DNA of 64,000 nucleotides, taken from NCBI GenBank assembly GCA_001777915.1, contig MFFN01000006.1:186001-250000 (forward strand). The letters are read 5' to 3'. Position numbers and translations under genes: made by a program. Origin of the DNA: Candidatus Edwardsbacteria bacterium RifOxyA12_full_54_48. Lineage in GTDB: Bacteria; Edwardsbacteria; AC1; EtOH8. The notes below the pieces were generated by a model that made no database searches, was not told the DNA's origin, and saw only the letters and a list, made by a program, of their open reading frames with translations. How positions within the stretch are numbered: position 1 is the first letter of the stretch; the number at the start of each line of letters is the position of its first letter. Shown here in pieces: positions 14,082-21,215 of the stretch.

Positions 14082-16766
14082 TTATTTAACCAGGTTTAAT
14101 CGTTTGGTCTGGGCAAACTTCTGCCCGTTGGCTCCGGTAGCCTCCATCCGGTAGAAATAGATGCCGTTGGCCACCGCCCGGCCGCTCTGGTCCGATCCGT
14201 TCCAGGTAATATTATGGTAGCCGGGATTCAGGTTGTCATCAACCAATGTTCTTATCTGCTGGCCGGTGATGTTGTAAACGACCAGCCTGACCCGGCTCTG
14301 GGCCGGCAGGGCAAATTGAATGTTGGTGGACCGGCTGAAGGGGTTGGGATTGTTCTGCCCCAGGCTGAAGTATCTGGGAGACGATGCCACCGGCTCCCCC
14401 TCCACCCCCTTCCATGAAGTTACCTGCAGATAGAACCAGGAGGAGAGGACGCTCTCGTTGGCCGGCAGTTTGTCATCAAAGGCGGTGACCGCGTAGTGAT
14501 ATATAGCGCCGTCGGCAATAGCTTTGTCCACAAAGTTATTCGTGGCGGCGGTGCCGATCTTGACCCATACCGGCAGGCCCACCTGCAGGGAGCGGTATAC
14601 ATTGTAGCCGGCCAGGTCTGGTTCGCTGTTGGCATCCCAGGCGCAGATCACGCTGTCATACTGCTGGGTGGCCGACAATCCGGTGGGAACCGCCGGAGGC
14701 ATGTATTCCAGAGCGCCGGGCATCAGCCACTGGATGATCCGGGAGGCCAGGGTGTCGCGCTTCTCCGGCAAAGAGACCGCCTCGAACGGGAATGAGGTGT
14801 AGACCATCTGGTAGTTGCCGGAGGTGCCGTCCCAGTACCTGATCCCTATGAAGTTTCCGCCGTCGTCGGTAATGAAGCCGGCAGCGTCGCTAAAAGCCGG
14901 ATCGGGGGTCAGGCCGTAGCCATAACCGGGGGTTGACCAGATCGAGCCGCCGCCATTGATGGGATCGTACAACAAGCTGTCGTATAATCCGTCTCCGATG
15001 GGATCGCCGGCCACCCCGGTACCGGTGTAGCAGGTGGAGCTGAACCAGCCGTTGTCCGGAGCCAGATGCAGGTAGTCGCTCCACAGGTTGGAATGAACCG
15101 TGGTATCCAGGGCCGGTGCGCTGAAGCCCAGATAGTTCTGCCCGGACATCCACAACTTTCCGCCGTTGTTCAGATATGATTTGATATTTTCCTGATCATA
15201 GGGGGTCAGGGCAAAATAGGATGCCCCCGCCCGGCCGTCGTAGTTGGCGCCCAGGTTCCAGATCACCAGCGGGAACTGCTCCAGGTAGCCGGCCGGCATA
15301 CTCTTGTTATAACCAATAGTGGCTAAGCTATAGCGATATCCCAGATTGGCTAACGAAGCCTCCATATATTTGGTCCAAGACTCGTTCCTAATATCTACCG
15401 CGCTACCATCGTTATCAACTAGCAATACTGTATTGGGGCCGGGCAACGGTTCCTGTGTTTTCCCTGTAATTATAAAATTGTCCACATAAACACCCTCACC
15501 GCCATCATCTTTTTCATCAGTACACATGGCAATTCTTATTTGAACTGTTTTACCGATATAAGAATTAAGAGATATTGAACCGGTATACTTCAAAGCTTGT
15601 TCTAATGCAATCCAAACCTGTTGGGGTGTGGCTACATTATATTGGTCAGCCCAAACCCAAGTTTTTCCGCTATCGGAGGAAATCTCAATATCAAAATAAT
15701 CCCAATCCCTAGTATATTCACTATAGGGTCCGGGGAAATCTACCCAAAGCGAAAAGCTGGCTATACAGGGCTGAGTTCCCTGCACCTTGCTCAAATCAAT
15801 ATAAGGTGAAATCAACGCATCCGAATAACCCCAAGAATGAAGAAACGTGCCTTCTTCGCCGCTATACCATGATTGGGTGGCACTTGTTGAACGATTTGTT
15901 GTTTTATGCCAACTTATCCTTGGTACTTTTACGCCTACTGTCCAACCATTTGTTCCACTTTCAGCATCGTCATAGAAAAAAGCACTTCCTGTGCTACCAG
16001 CATTTAAGGTGTCAATCTGTATATTATCAATATACCAGGCGCCGTTATATGGGCCGCCATCCTCATCGCATTCAGCCCAATCACTAACGGTAGAAAATCT
16101 GAGCTGCAGATTCTGCCCTTTATATGCAGTCAAATCAAAAACGACCTGTTGCCAGCCGCTATTTGAGCCGCCCCAACCTGCTACATTGTTAGTGCCCGAA
16201 GTCAGGCCCATATAATCCCACGCTCGCGAATCTGATAGGTTATATAGCTTATCAGAGGTATTCCTCAGTACATCGGGTGACAAAATAAACCAATTGGCAC
16301 CACCGTCAATTGTGCCCCACAGGTTAACACAATCCCAATCATCTCCACCGCTGGGGCCCTCGACGCTGTAGTAGTGGTAAAATTTCAATAAAACCGTATC
16401 GGAAATTACTGTGGTTAAGTCAAAACTTGGCGAATATAGATATTGCACCCAAGCAATGCCATAACCCGGGGTGGCCAAATAAGCAGGATCGTATTTACCG
16501 CACCACCAGAGGTTGCCTGAATAAGCGCCTACAGGGCAATATGAATCAATATGCCAATAGGCTGAATCTTGTACTAAAATGTCTACCACCGACCAGCCCA
16601 TGGTATCGGTTTCAAAGTTATCGAAAAAAACCGTATCATAGGTTGCTTTAGCAAGTGCATAATCAGTCTTGTTAAATTCCGTTTGTGTTGCCAACGGTTT
16701 AGCCCAAACACTTGAATAAATGCTCAATAAAAGCAAGAGGCTAATTGTTAAACATATTTTTTTCAT
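14082..16766 (-). CDS. Secreted protein with MAM-like, amidotransferase-like, FN3 and sorting domains
   Basis: The protein has 894 residues from the ATG at 16766, which opens a good signal peptide (MKKICLTISLLLLLSIYSSVWA). GAAGGA lies almost against this ATG, so the in-frame ATG at 16781 or GTG at 16802 remain possible. Two MAM-like jelly-roll domains (about 30-440) repeat F-(E/D)-x-(D/G)-x-x-GW and WY-IDNIQI / VYVDNFII motifs. A degenerate amidotransferase-like domain follows (about 445-640; VLLVDND, LNNGGKLWMSGQN), then a fibronectin type III domain (about 690-790) and the sorting domain. The first half of the gene is clearly more AT-rich than the second, which hints at a recombined or acquired segment next to the AT-rich cassette. 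No enzyme activity can be assigned. Confidence 0.85.
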   Translation of the reverse strand: MKKICLTISLLLLLSIYSSVWAKPLATQTEFNKTDYALAKATYDTVFFDNFETDTMGWSVVDILVQDSAYWHIDSYCPVGAYSGNLWWCGKYDPAYLATPGYGIAWVQYLYSPSFDLTTVISDTVLLKFYHYYSVEGPSGGDDWDCVNLWGTIDGGANWFILSPDVLRNTSDKLYNLSDSRAWDYMGLTSGTNNVAGWGGSNSGWQQVVFDLTAYKGQNLQLRFSTVSDWAECDEDGGPYNGAWYIDNIQIDTLNAGSTGSAFFYDDAESGTNGWTVGVKVPRISWHKTTNRSTSATQSWYSGEEGTFLHSWGYSDALISPYIDLSKVQGTQPCIASFSLWVDFPGPYSEYTRDWDYFDIEISSDSGKTWVWADQYNVATPQQVWIALEQALKYTGSISLNSYIGKTVQIRIAMCTDEKDDGGEGVYVDNFIITGKTQEPLPGPNTVLLVDNDGSAVDIRNESWTKYMEASLANLGYRYSLATIGYNKSMPAGYLEQFPLVIWNLGANYDGRAGASYFALTPYDQENIKSYLNNGGKLWMSGQNYLGFSAPALDTTVHSNLWSDYLHLAPDNGWFSSTCYTGTGVAGDPIGDGLYDSLLYDPINGGGSIWSTPGYGYGLTPDPAFSDAAGFITDDGGNFIGIRYWDGTSGNYQMVYTSFPFEAVSLPEKRDTLASRIIQWLMPGALEYMPPAVPTGLSATQQYDSVICAWDANSEPDLAGYNVYRSLQVGLPVWVKIGTAATNNFVDKAIADGAIYHYAVTAFDDKLPANESVLSSWFYLQVTSWKGVEGEPVASSPRYFSLGQNNPNPFSRSTNIQFALPAQSRVRLVVYNITGQQIRTLVDDNLNPGYHNITWNGSDQSGRAVANGIYFYRMEATGANGQKFAQTKRLNLVK

Positions 16767-16847
16767 TTCCTTCACTTTCATTAAATTTGTTTTACTTTGC
16801 ACTTTATATTTATAATTCTCTTTCGAGAAATAACTTCTTATTAATAA

Positions 16848-16886
16848 CCCATGGCACCATATTTCCCGCCCTTATAGTGCCATGGG
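16848..16886 (-). terminator. Hairpin after the Cys-rich peptide gene
   Basis: A perfect 10-bp stem (CCCATGGCAC with GTGCCATGGG) encloses a 19-base loop, 6 bases after the stop of the small peptide gene. The following minus-strand bases are AT-rich but lack a clean T-run. It could be a terminator or a processing and stability hairpin that separates the cassette from the gene at 16766. Confidence 0.5.
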
Positions 16887-16892
16887 CCGGTA

Positions 16893-17036
16893 TTATTGGC
16901 AAACATACCTCGGATCTGAACAACTTACATTATCGGGGCAACAAGAACTACATGGCAACGCAAACATTGTATCACCTTTTTGACCATAATGCTGGGAACT
17001 TGTAAATGCATTTACACCCTTATTAAGCAATTCCAT
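16893..17036 (-). CDS. Cys-rich 47-residue peptide, candidate RiPP precursor
   Basis: The ATG at 17036 follows an ideal Shine-Dalgarno (AGGAGGTGAT, 4-base spacing). The product has a leader-like part, MELLNKGVNAFTSSQHYGQK, then GDTMFALP, then a core starting at residue 29. Cysteines are at 29, 32, 33, 39 and 46 (pattern C-x2-C-C-x5-C-x6-C), with Asp at 35 and 41 two residues after a Cys. The gene starts 21 bases after the stop of a radical SAM/SPASM enzyme. Such neighbours are typical of sactipeptide, ranthipeptide and other Cys-thioether RiPPs. It has no hydrophobic signal sequence. The order (maturase first, precursor second) and the Cys spacing do not match the SCIFF or subtilosin precursors I know. 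Assignment as a precursor is inference; the gene itself is well supported by its ribosome site. Confidence 0.75.
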   Translation of the reverse strand: MELLNKGVNAFTSSQHYGQKGDTMFALPCSSCCPDNVSCSDPRYVCQ

Positions 17037-17040
17037 ATAA

Positions 17041-17050
17041 ATCACCTCCT
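17041..17050 (-). promoter_or_regulatory. Unusually strong ribosome binding site of the peptide gene
   Basis: The ten bases AGGAGGTGAT fully complement the usual 16S rRNA tail, far better than most sites in this window. This fits a peptide made in large excess over its maturase. Confidence 0.85.
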
Positions 17051-17057
17051 CTCAAAT

Positions 17058-18392
17058 TTAGTTAAGGGTATTTATCAATTCGTTAAATTTTATATTTAAC
17101 CACTGTTCCCAATACCCACAAATTTCATTATTTGGTATACCAAGTCTTTTCCTGCTACTCGGGCAACCACCCATACACATAGGCACGTATTTACAACTCA
17201 TACATTTTTCATTATTATTAAAAATATTATAGTTGAACCATTGCCAAAAAACCTCATTGGGCTGAAAGTCACCATCAACTATAAAACCAACAGAATCACT
17301 GTATCCAAGGGCTTCTGCACATTTGTATATTTTAAGTTTGGGCCCAATTATAAAACATTTATGGCTTTCTGCGCCACAATTAGTGTGTTTTATTTGAATC
17401 GGCATTTTATTAACAGTTTTAACTCTTTTATAATAATTATCTATATAACCTTGGATGTTTTGTAATTCAAAGCCATTGAGACAATCATTATCATTTTCTT
17501 TGCTAACAATGCCTCCTAAATAATTTTTTAACCTACCAACACTTATAACAATATTATTTTTATTGAAGATATCGCTTTTATTTTTCAATAACCTAACTAT
17601 ACCCTCGTGGTTGCTTTTATTTGTGTTAAACCTTACTGTAACTAACTCGAAATAACGTTGTGCAATAATGATAGAGTTTAATATTTTATCGAATGTGCCT
17701 TCACCGTTTTTTAATATTCGTTGTTTATTATGCGCATCCCTGTCACCATCTAATGTAATTTGTATTTTTTTTATACCACAATTAAATAATCTTTTAGCAC
17801 AATCTTCGTCTAATAAATAACCGTTCGTTACTATAGAGTCACAAGCTCTTTTTATATTGTTGTTTTTACATATAATATCAATTTTATTAGAAATATTTTC
17901 TATAGTATCTACTTCAAGCAAGGGTTCGCCACCATACCATGAAATACCGAAATCATTGGGTTGACATATAAAAAGTTGTTTATCAATAAACTTATAAATT
18001 TCCTCGTATTCTTTTAAAGTTATATTTTCGTCCCTTTTATCCCTTTCAAAACAATAAGGGCAATTAAGGTTACAATTCAGCGTTGGTACAATTGTAACAC
18101 GGAAATCTCTACTGTTAAAAACCCCTCTATAATATCTAAATTTAACTTGATCTATTTCATTAATTTTATTATTAATAATGAAACCGTTATTAATTAACAA
18201 ATTATACTCGTCCGTTTCTAATTCATTTAGATCATTCAATTTTAATGTTATTTTTATTTTCTCAGCTTTTTCTTTTGTTAGTTTAATCAATGCTGTAGTA
18301 AAGGTATTATACAGCAGCGTCACACCTGCTTTATCTTCAAAAAATATGTTGTATTGCGAAGATTTATAAACATCCTTTTCCATACATTTCAT
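17058..18392 (-). CDS. Radical SAM/SPASM peptide maturase-like enzyme
   Basis: The protein has 444 residues from the ATG at 18392. Codons upstream fall inside the promoter, and the next ATG (18383) may be the true, leaderless start. The N-terminal segment SSQYNIFF then LLYNT resembles the short N-terminal region of Cys-rich-peptide maturases. The radical SAM motif C-x3-C-x2-C is at Cys107, 111 and 114 (CNLNCPYC), followed by YGGEPLL. The C-terminal SPASM region has many cysteines (CGAESHKC, then KCAEA, then CMSCKYVPMCMGGC, then a late Cys), enough for two auxiliary Fe-S clusters. The family uses SAM radicals to crosslink or otherwise modify peptides. The probable substrate is the adjacent Cys-rich peptide. 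Codons are strongly AT-biased, unlike the surrounding genes, which suggests recent transfer. Confidence 0.9.
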   Translation of the reverse strand: MKCMEKDVYKSSQYNIFFEDKAGVTLLYNTFTTALIKLTKEKAEKIKITLKLNDLNELETDEYNLLINNGFIINNKINEIDQVKFRYYRGVFNSRDFRVTIVPTLNCNLNCPYCFERDKRDENITLKEYEEIYKFIDKQLFICQPNDFGISWYGGEPLLEVDTIENISNKIDIICKNNNIKRACDSIVTNGYLLDEDCAKRLFNCGIKKIQITLDGDRDAHNKQRILKNGEGTFDKILNSIIIAQRYFELVTVRFNTNKSNHEGIVRLLKNKSDIFNKNNIVISVGRLKNYLGGIVSKENDNDCLNGFELQNIQGYIDNYYKRVKTVNKMPIQIKHTNCGAESHKCFIIGPKLKIYKCAEALGYSDSVGFIVDGDFQPNEVFWQWFNYNIFNNNEKCMSCKYVPMCMGGCPSSRKRLGIPNNEICGYWEQWLNIKFNELINTLN

Positions 18393-18419
18393 TTTAGGAT
18401 ATTTGGCCCAAAATGTCAA
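18391..18419 (-). promoter_or_regulatory. Sigma-70-type promoter of the radical SAM/peptide cassette
   Basis: On the minus strand a perfect TTGACA (18419-18414) is followed by a 17-base spacer and TAAAAT (18396-18391). The -10 box touches the first in-frame ATG (18392). Transcription would then begin within one or two bases of the second ATG (18383), so translation may be leaderless. Confidence 0.65.
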
Positions 18420-18553
18420 GGATATATTTCATTAGGGCTTATAAAAATCGCGCCGGGACAAGGGCTAAAACTGTCACCAATCATGAATTCCCCGACAATT
18501 TTTCAATATAGCCCCTGTAGGGAGCCGGTGGCTATATAAAAGACTATGAATCA

Positions 18554-18585
18554 GAGGGCGGCGTCTATTATCAAGCGCCGCCCTC
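18554..18585 (-). terminator. Terminator hairpin after the M14 peptidase gene
   Basis: A 10-bp G+C-rich stem (GAGGGCGGCG with CGCCGCCCTC) with a 12-base loop lies 20 bases after the stop at 18606. No strong T-run follows. Confidence 0.65.
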
Positions 18586-18605
18586 CGTTGCAAAATACAG
18601 GGACC

Positions 18606-21215
18606 TTATCTTAAGATCATCACCTTGCCGGTGGCCGAGAAATCCCCGGAGGTCATCTTATACAGGTAAACCCCATTGGCCGCTTTTTGGCCCTGGGAAT
18701 CCTTACCGTCCCACGGCAGACTGTAATGCCCGGCCGGCTGGATGCCGTCCGCCAGGGTCCGCACCTCCTGCCCGGCGATGTTGTAAATTTTTAGGCTGAC
18801 CTGTCCTGATTTTACAATTTGATATTTTATATTTGTCATTTGGCCAAACGGGTTGGGATAGGCCTTCTCCAAACGGTAGCTCAAGGGCAGGTCCCGGCCC
18901 CCGTACTCCACCAGCATCGGCCCGTAGTAGGTTTTGGTCCCGCTCAGATCCACCTCGGCCAACCGGTAATAATAAATCCCTGTTTCCAGTTTCCAGTTGT
19001 CTGTGTAGCTGTATTCATGCGGCTCGTTGGTGGTCAGATTACCAATAACTTTTCCCACCTCGGCAAAATTCCCGTCTTCGGTGGTTGACCGCTCTATCAG
19101 CCAATGATCGCAGTCCTTCTCGCTCTCGGTCCGCCAGCGAACCTCCACTTTATCTTTGACCTGCAGTGCCGTAAATGAGCTTAACTCGACAGCCGAAGGA
19201 TAGACTAAAACTTTTTTCAGTTGGCTCCAATCCCCCCAGCTTCTTTTGCCATTATATCCGCGCACCCGATAGTAATAAGTCTCCCCTACTGTCCGTTGGC
19301 CGACAACATAACTGGGTATGGTTATGGAATTTGAAAGCGAAACAGCCGTCGAGTAAGCCGCTACCGGTTTTACATCATCGATATATATCCCGTCGGTGGC
19401 GGTCAGACCGTCGCCCACCAGACGGATGCGGAAGAACACCGACCGGTCGAGATATTTTGCGGGATCGATGGCGAAGGCCCTTCTGGTCCAGCTGAGGACA
19501 TTGCCGTATAACTTTCCTAAAAGGTCCCACTGCCGGCCGTCGGTGGAGATCTCCACCCAGATGCGGTCGAAGGTGGTCATGGCCTGATAGCTGTAAAAGC
19601 TGAACGAATCGCTGGCCGAGCTGACCGGGTATGGGCTGGTGGTGGTGATGCTAGCAATGTTGTACTGGTTGCTGACCGCGCTGTAATAACTGCGGCTGCC
19701 GGAATACATCCTGACGGTGGAGGAGACAAAACCATTCAATGAAATATTGGGATTGGCCGAAGCCCCCACCGTGTCGGTGGCGGCATTAAAACCGGTCATT
19801 TCCTGCAATTCGTAAACCGAAGGATTCGACGCCGGATTCAGGAGGTTCCAGCTGAGGGCAACGGTATTGGTGGCTTTGCCTTTCAGCGGGAACGAAGGCG
19901 GATTGAAGGTCGGCGGCAGGACCGGCGGCGGCGAGGTGGTGCTGACCAGGCTGTCGGTGCGCAGGGCCAGGTACATGAATCCTTTGAGGGTCTGGGGACA
20001 GACCGAATCTATATGGCTGGGCGGGGTGTAGAAGGCGGTGTCCGCCTCCACGCAGTAGGGAAAGATCACCCGGCCCAATTGGGTCAGGCCGTAGCCGTAG
20101 ATCCAGCCGTCGGAATCCCCGGTGGTGGGATACAGGGCCGAGCTCTGCATGGGCGAATAACTCTGGACGCTGCGGTACTTTTTGATCCGGGCCGCCGACT
20201 GCTGGCCGAAATAGCGCAATTCCAGGCTGTCCGGAGCCCGCTTGACGGTGGAATCCACATAGCCCAGGGGCCACAGCACCAGCTCGCTGTAAGTATGATA
20301 GGAGATGGACAGCACGATGTTATGTTCTTTGACCAGCTTCATCACGGCCTGCTGTTCCGGCTCGCCGCTGGGAGAGAATCCGTAGAAGACATCGTTGGAG
20401 GAATCGGGGCTGGTGTAGGGATTTACCGATCCACCCCAGGCCCCCCGGATGTCGCCGTCCACCGAGCCGTCGTAGCCCCGGTTGAGGTCAACCCCGTAGA
20501 CCGTGGGGCTGTTCTGGCGGCGGTTCTTGCGCCACATCACCCCCGTCCCGTAATTGCCGCCGTTGTCGTAGATAAAACCGTCCGGGTTGACCAGCGGGGC
20601 AATGTATATCTCCCGGGTCTTGATCAGGGTGGAGATGGAATCGGTCCCGGCCGGGTTGTAATTGTTGGTCAGGTAATTGGCGAGGTACAGGCAGATCTCC
20701 GGCGTCATCCATTCCCGGGCGTGATGATTCCCCATTATCAGGATGCCGTGGCGCGAATTATCACTGACCGCGGGATTGTCCGAGATCTTAAGGCACCATA
20801 CCTTGCCCCCCTGGGCCGCCACGGTCAGGGTATCCAGCCTGGTGATGGCCGGATGGTCGGCCGCGATCTGCTTCAGCTCGGCCCGGATGCCGTCATAGGT
20901 ATGATAGGCTGCCTTGCCGCTGTAGGGGGTTACATCCCGGGGAGAGCTCATCAATACCTTGTAAACCAGCCCGGCCCCAGCTATCCGCCACAGTTGGTCG
21001 GGCAAAATGACGATGTCGGCGTACTCCCCGGGCCGGTAGGCGGCCACATCCAGGCCATATCCGATATGGGCCAGCCGTTCGGCTGCTGCCGGATCGGAGA
21101 TGTCCACCCGGATCAGCATCTTGTCGGCGCTGTCCTGACCATAGGCTGTTGCAGACGATATAACCAGAGCAGCCATAAAGATCAAAACGATTTTCATATC
21201 TTTGCTTTTAAGCAT
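18606..21215 (-). CDS. Secreted M14 zinc carboxypeptidase with sorting domain
   Basis: The protein has 869 residues. AAGGA lies 5 bases before the ATG at 21215, and the product begins MLKSKDMKIVLIFMAALV, a signal peptide. Family M14 features are present: GNHHAREWMTPE supplies the zinc-binding His and Glu (HxxE), NPDG and WRKNRR follow, then VDLNRGYD (substrate-binding Asn-Arg), the third zinc ligand in SISYHTYSE and the catalytic Glu in FPYCVEADT. It most resembles carboxypeptidase T-type enzymes. After the catalytic domain (to about 420) come a MAM/immune-inhibitor-A-like beta-sandwich, a fibronectin III-like region and the FlgD-like/T9SS sorting domain. It would trim peptides outside the cell. 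The C-terminal third is nearly the same as that of the next gene (21312-24173). Confidence 0.93.
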   Translation of the reverse strand: MLKSKDMKIVLIFMAALVISSATAYGQDSADKMLIRVDISDPAAAERLAHIGYGLDVAAYRPGEYADIVILPDQLWRIAGAGLVYKVLMSSPRDVTPYSGKAAYHTYDGIRAELKQIAADHPAITRLDTLTVAAQGGKVWCLKISDNPAVSDNSRHGILIMGNHHAREWMTPEICLYLANYLTNNYNPAGTDSISTLIKTREIYIAPLVNPDGFIYDNGGNYGTGVMWRKNRRQNSPTVYGVDLNRGYDGSVDGDIRGAWGGSVNPYTSPDSSNDVFYGFSPSGEPEQQAVMKLVKEHNIVLSISYHTYSELVLWPLGYVDSTVKRAPDSLELRYFGQQSAARIKKYRSVQSYSPMQSSALYPTTGDSDGWIYGYGLTQLGRVIFPYCVEADTAFYTPPSHIDSVCPQTLKGFMYLALRTDSLVSTTSPPPVLPPTFNPPSFPLKGKATNTVALSWNLLNPASNPSVYELQEMTGFNAATDTVGASANPNISLNGFVSSTVRMYSGSRSYYSAVSNQYNIASITTTSPYPVSSASDSFSFYSYQAMTTFDRIWVEISTDGRQWDLLGKLYGNVLSWTRRAFAIDPAKYLDRSVFFRIRLVGDGLTATDGIYIDDVKPVAAYSTAVSLSNSITIPSYVVGQRTVGETYYYRVRGYNGKRSWGDWSQLKKVLVYPSAVELSSFTALQVKDKVEVRWRTESEKDCDHWLIERSTTEDGNFAEVGKVIGNLTTNEPHEYSYTDNWKLETGIYYYRLAEVDLSGTKTYYGPMLVEYGGRDLPLSYRLEKAYPNPFGQMTNIKYQIVKSGQVSLKIYNIAGQEVRTLADGIQPAGHYSLPWDGKDSQGQKAANGVYLYKMTSGDFSATGKVMILR
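19084..19139 (-). repeat. 56-base exact repeat, copy in the M14 gene
   Basis: This stretch is identical to 21790-21845. It encodes the WRTESEKDCDHWLIERST segment before the sorting domain. Flanking sequence is also highly similar (18616-19140 against 21322-21845), which indicates recent duplication or gene conversion of the C-terminal cassette. Confidence 0.85.

Follow-up and report, generated by a model that had tools for sequence, protein, structure and literature searches.

The cassette described here lies wholly on the minus strand of the window, a 64,000-nucleotide stretch of Candidatus Edwardsbacteria DNA, and consists of a gene for a radical SAM/SPASM peptide maturase followed by a tiny gene for a cysteine-rich peptide. 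An earlier sequence-only reading had left the strand unstated. The genes and features at the locus are as follows.

18391..18419, minus strand: sigma-70-like promoter TTGACA-17-TAAAAT, matching 11 of 12 consensus positions, which now precedes the maturase gene
17058..18383, minus strand: radical SAM/SPASM peptide maturase, 441 aa from ATG 18383 (444 aa from ATG 18392, 17058-18392)
Maturase residues about 1-90: N-terminal RRE-like domain
Maturase C104, C108 and C111: radical SAM motif CX3CX2C
Maturase C336, C355, C394, C397, C403, C407 and C422: the seven SPASM cysteines
17041..17051, minus strand: near-perfect Shine-Dalgarno of the precursor gene, GAGAGGAGGTGAT (GAGGAGGTGAT region), near-identical in the two closest relatives
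16893..17036, minus strand: 47-aa precursor peptide MELLNKGVNAFTSSQHYGQKGDTMFALPCSSCCPDNVSCSDPRYVCQ, with a short leader (MELLNKG...) and a C-terminal core with five cysteines
16848..16886, minus strand: hairpin shortly after the precursor stop, folding into a 16-bp stem at -26.7 kcal/mol and lacking a U-run
Approximately 16770..18387, minus strand: inserted low-GC segment, which three relatives lack at the corresponding position
14082-16802: gene for a secreted protein of 906 aa, downstream of the cassette

The open reading frame at 17058-18392 encodes the 444-residue radical SAM enzyme with a cysteine-dense SPASM tail that the sequence-only reading described, with both the motif and the SPASM cysteines in place; the start is likelier the next in-frame ATG, at 18383, since ATG 18392 overlaps the -10 box. 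The enzyme scores 55.9 bits against PF04055 (cut-off 29.5), and its radical SAM motif and all seven SPASM cysteines are invariant among 77 aligned sequences. The precursor gene also proved to be as first described, a tiny five-cysteine gene behind a strong Shine-Dalgarno, with its ATG (17036) 21 nt after the maturase stop. The five cysteines fall within the last 19 residues in the pattern C29-x2-C32C33-x5-C39-x6-C46, with two C-x-D spacings (C33-x-D35 and C39-x-D41). Among the 3201 possible starts in the window, that of the precursor is unique in combining a leader score this good or better with a product of at most 90 aa and at least four cysteines, and a Shine-Dalgarno of at least eight bases precedes just one further start. 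The peptide itself matched no protein family.

The same gene pair occurs in two genomes of the same family, G003 and G007. The G003 maturase (L009) is 44% identical to that of the window and is followed by the peptide MELVNKGITALKGECKEESGSLGNPCCGTLCAINLLHCVCA, and the G007 maturase (L010) is 37% identical and is followed by MEILRTGKHNIYTTEAESENAAPISCCADNLCIPTKVCY. The three maturases form one clade (support 100/97, with 100/99 for the inner pair, and bootstrap values of 100 for two rows and 100 for three), and the three peptides have in common a short ME[LI][LV]..G start. The peptide alignment score between window and L009 was reached in 4 of 2000 shuffles, and that between window and L010 in 6 of 2000. 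The window-L009 match lies mainly in the leader and the cysteine spacings are not kept; all three cores differ in cysteine spacing and in candidate acceptor residues. The pattern GGAGGTG-N3-8-ATGGARNTNNTN has four matches in ten genomes of the phylum, of which one each in the window genome, G003 and G007 is the gene right behind the maturase; it was devised after seeing these three genes, such that its informative part is the near absence of other matches. A match in G009, considered as an orphan precursor, was rejected as it lies inside a longer ORF. The reversed control gave zero matches in the ten genomes, and tblastn returned no convincing orphan precursors elsewhere in the phylum. Conserved in this manner, the maturase and its own cysteine-rich precursor, as had been proposed from the window alone, are probably a functional RiPP pair.

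Other homologues in these genomes have different surroundings. A second copy in G007 (L012), 33% identical to the window maturase, belongs to another clade and is accompanied by three peptides in tandem and another two radical SAM genes. On contig C10 of G007 (L111, 4234-10569), three radical SAM genes surround three tandem cysteine-containing peptides (44, 44 and 35 aa), and an ABC-transporter-like gene lies upstream in the opposite orientation; this is a larger RiPP cluster of the same maturase family. The window genome also holds a second, very divergent homologue (L002, 1498-2682; C4:230243) of 394 aa and about 24% identity. It sits immediately after a pilT-like gene and is conserved in a congeneric species (L011, G002), and no precursor was identified for it.

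Beyond the closest relatives, a search with a four-sequence alignment, run against a single genome from each species, recovered 80 loci from many phyla. At least 43 of these 80 distant homologues are adjoined by tiny cysteine-containing ORFs, most with a strong Shine-Dalgarno. They often stand in tandem, as many as seven in a row, and annotated precursors of the Clo7bot and CefA types are found next to homologues on plasmids. The expectation that homologous maturases would be accompanied by similar small cysteine-rich ORFs was thus borne out, in G003 and G007 as well as across the wider family, and this identifies the enzyme as a peptide maturase. Among 52 peptides from 45 loci, some of which contributed two or three, the common leader start is M-[KED]-[YFW]-[LIV]-[VI]-[KED]-P, with Leu, Ile or Val at position 4 in all 52 and Pro at position 7 in 43; these figures are descriptive and constitute no test, since the set was partly picked by eye for that start. 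The annotated Clo7bot (MKFIKKP...) and CefA (MQYLVQP) peptides have the same start. The leader of the window clade is of the same length and keeps the aliphatic positions, with Leu/Ile at position 3, Asn/Arg at 5 and Gly at 7; the window leader is without the aromatic-3/Pro-7 signature and scores 1.1 bits against a median of 13.5.

Several further observations were made in this wider set. In many precursors, the cysteine core is followed by a PLYG[VI]xP-like C-terminal motif, possibly a follower or cleavage signal (L032, L044, L048, L049, L076, L081, L082, L084, L088 and L092, mostly Zixibacteria, and L012); the two such precursors that were scanned had no NCBIfam match. In a Stahlbacteria locus (L036, 1392 onwards) the maturase homologue is directly followed by a ThiF/E1-like gene, which suggests a mixed RiPP pathway. 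The core likeness between CPDNVSCS of the window and CPDRVSCS of a Clostridium peptide (L020) was reached by 5 of 2000 shuffles, and by 41 of 5000 with the cysteines fixed, and is not significant given that about 50 peptides were compared.

Measured against curated families, all 77 aligned maturases match TIGR04334, TIGR04463, NF038107, NF052473 and TIGR04280, whereas the window maturase reaches only about one third of the cut-offs of the nearest, namely Clo7bot (TIGR04334, 203 bits against 600), TIGR04463 (198 against 525) and CefB (NF038107, 182 against 600). It scores 152 bits against 400 for the geopeptide model (TIGR04280) and 153 against 500 for FlmE-OhkG (NF052473). With Clo7bot the window has maturase architecture and length in common, and Clo7bot precursors are likewise tiny, cysteine-rich and adjacent to the maturase; they start MK[FY]I.KP, however, and form tandem arrays on a Paraclostridium plasmid, whereas the window peptide is present in single copy, has a leader without Pro-7 and aromatic-3, and does not match the precursor model TIGR04333 (cut-off 31). 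A genuine Clo7bot member, L021, scores 719 bits for the maturase and 36.7 for the peptide. Homology to TIGR04463 and to CefB of the CefB/CefA pair extends over residues 7-408 of the window maturase, though CefA, which begins with the family leader MQYLVQP, is annotated as a long protein, unlike the 47-aa peptide. Because the maturase scores are below the cut-offs and the peptide matches no family, we do not file the window pair under Clo7bot, TIGR04463 or CefB.

More distant systems are further removed still. The maturase of the SCIFF ranthipeptide thermocellin, CteB, combines RRE, radical SAM and SPASM domains, a make-up that the window maturase with its RRE-like N-terminus probably shares, and provides the closest solved structure, but the SCIFF model (TIGR03974) gives the window maturase 48 bits against a cut-off of 425 and the window precursor is not a six-cysteine SCIFF peptide, in accordance with the initial view that the system is distinct from the SCIFF, subtilosin and six-cysteine families. 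PapB, which acts on PapA to give the ranthipeptide freyrasin, is also a radical SAM/SPASM maturase with a cysteine-rich substrate, though its model (NF047865) yields 93 bits against 340 and the window peptide is without C-x3-D repeats. To have called the RiPP system undescribed was too strong, since NCBI curates close relatives (TIGR04334/TIGR04333, TIGR04463, CefB/CefA and geopeptide) and all 77 homologues match their models. The low family-model scores and the deviating leader place the window clade, by sequence comparison, as a divergent branch of the wide family in enzyme and leader alike. The window pair is therefore a divergent branch of a widespread, little-studied peptide-modifying kind and not wholly new. 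In the literature searched we found no product structure for the window clade or for the Clo7bot, TIGR04463 or geopeptide branches, nor any paper that deals with Clo7bot or geopeptide chemistry.

An AlphaFold2 model of the maturase (pLDDT 90, from a 74-sequence alignment) comprises an RRE-like domain, a radical SAM barrel and a seven-cysteine SPASM domain. Its best solved match is CteB (5WHY/5WGG, E 2e-15), with about 20% identity in the structural alignment, followed by anSME, SuiB, TigE and ChlB, and a profile search likewise returned CteB first (5WGG, E 6e-41). The N-terminal 97 residues are modeled as three strands and three helices, whose best matches in the PDB are RREs (TigE, 8VPO, and TbiB1 bound to a lasso leader), weak at E values of only 0.015-0.2. 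The presence of anSME structures among the best fold matches raises the alternative that, as with sulfatase maturases, the substrate is encoded elsewhere and the small ORF is incidental. We consider this very unlikely, as the adjacent peptide is kept in three genomes behind a genome-unique Shine-Dalgarno/leader pattern, the anSME-family score is 72 bits against a cut-off of 349, and anSMEs lack the RRE-like N-terminal domain.

Our preferred interpretation, to which we assign a probability of about 0.72, is a minimal RiPP operon in which a leader-binding maturase puts cysteine-thioether rings into the 47-residue peptide. The RRE-like domain would bind the short leader, and the 5'-deoxyadenosyl radical generated at the radical SAM cluster would abstract a hydrogen from a residue of the core, with a core cysteine bound meanwhile to a SPASM [4Fe-4S] cluster. 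The outcome would be one or more thioether rings of the ranthipeptide or sactipeptide type, and an unlinked protease and exporter would finish the product. No linked peptidase or transporter belongs to the cassette. Peptidase C39 is absent from the window genome, rated 100% complete, and the classical double-glycine bacteriocin route is therefore unlikely. Given the invariant cysteines, the model and profile matches to CteB and the weak match of the N-terminal domain to RREs, leader-guided thioether formation appears the likeliest chemistry. The match to CteB nevertheless leaves the chemistry unfixed, as anSME, SuiB (which forms a Lys-Trp link) and TigE score almost equally.

It is conceivable, though we regard it as unlikely, that the pair makes a RiPP with a non-thioether modification (carbon-carbon, ether or cyclopropane) and that the cysteines form disulfides or bind metal. 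SuiB, which forms a carbon-carbon link, and TigE, whose product is a non-thioether, are close structural matches, the RRE-like domain finds its best match in the N-terminal domain of TigE, and the acceptor residues differ among the three closest cores. Yet the cores of the wide family's peptides have no common feature except cysteine, and the best match by both structure and profile is a thioether enzyme. With respect to the acceptor in a thioether product, C-x-D is found in the peptides of the window and of L010 and is missing from that of L009, and the window peptide does not contain the PapB motif C-x3-D. A Cys-to-Asp thioether at C-x-D would be chemically possible by analogy, since the substrate range of PapB covers Cys-Xn-Asp with n = 0-6 (PMC9413430).

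The setting of the cassette bears on its origin. The maturase gene has 28.8% GC against 54.7% for the window, and in G001 and G007 an M14-peptidase-like gene (identified by eye) adjoins the 906-aa secreted-protein gene with no cassette between them; G003 has a different ORF at this position. The promoter of the 906-aa gene is TTGACATTTTGGGTTAAATACTCTAAAAT in G001 and TTGACATTTAGAGCAAAATATTCTAAAAT in G003, and the same element, TTGACATTTTGGGCCAAATATCCTAAAAT, precedes the window maturase. Homology of the window to G001 stops about four bases behind the -10 box. Together, these place the cassette between a resident promoter and its gene, and the alignments indicate that the promoter is ancestrally that of the secreted-protein gene and not the cassette's own. 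The transcript would start near position 18384, next to ATG 18383, and would be almost leaderless, and read-through would cotranscribe the cassette with the 906-aa gene. The hairpin was rejected as a special regulatory element: similar stems also follow the L009 and L010 precursors, but of the window's 33 long genes, 5 are likewise followed by a comparable stem (at least 12 bp), and the hairpin is therefore ordinary for this genome. The sequence-only picture of a self-contained cassette with a strong promoter is thus inaccurate as to the promoter. Between the M14-like and 906-aa genes (16803-18606 in the window; also L104, L106 and L108), the contents differ among four relatives, being the maturase cassette, DNA resembling repeats, an ORF of 632 aa, or next to nothing, so that this interval may be insertion-prone.

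The low GC of the window maturase, set against 58% for that of G003, suggests transfer from a low-GC donor. No such donor was identified, nor were convincing terminal repeats of a transposon found around the insert. A viral origin was discarded, as a first viral scan returned nothing, a second only distant relatives, and phage and plasmid collections only matches of about 25-34% identity. A GC content of 29%, a site that is empty in relatives and the lack of linked export genes would also befit a horizontally acquired remnant that is intact yet silent. We give this little chance, as the ORFs are full-length, the catalytic cysteines are all kept, and a near-perfect Shine-Dalgarno and a conserved promoter stand in front. 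A more speculative view, which we hold to be improbable, is that the clade of window, G003 and G007 represents a RiPP class apart, with a leader code (ME[LI][LV]..G in place of the wide family's M.[YFW][LIV].[KED]P) and a crosslink peculiar to it. On this view the two genes would have spread together among candidate-phylum bacteria without a promoter, relying on one already resident at the insertion site.

In summary, a minimal thioether-forming RiPP operon is our favored reading of the window pair, which belongs to a maturase family that spans Clostridia, Zixibacteria, Caldisericota, WOR-3/Stahlbacteria, methanogens and others, and in which many maturases have a tiny partner peptide with the common seven-residue start of the leader. 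Compact, with two genes and one short substrate, the cassette is an easy test system for the product and for how the seven-residue leader is read.
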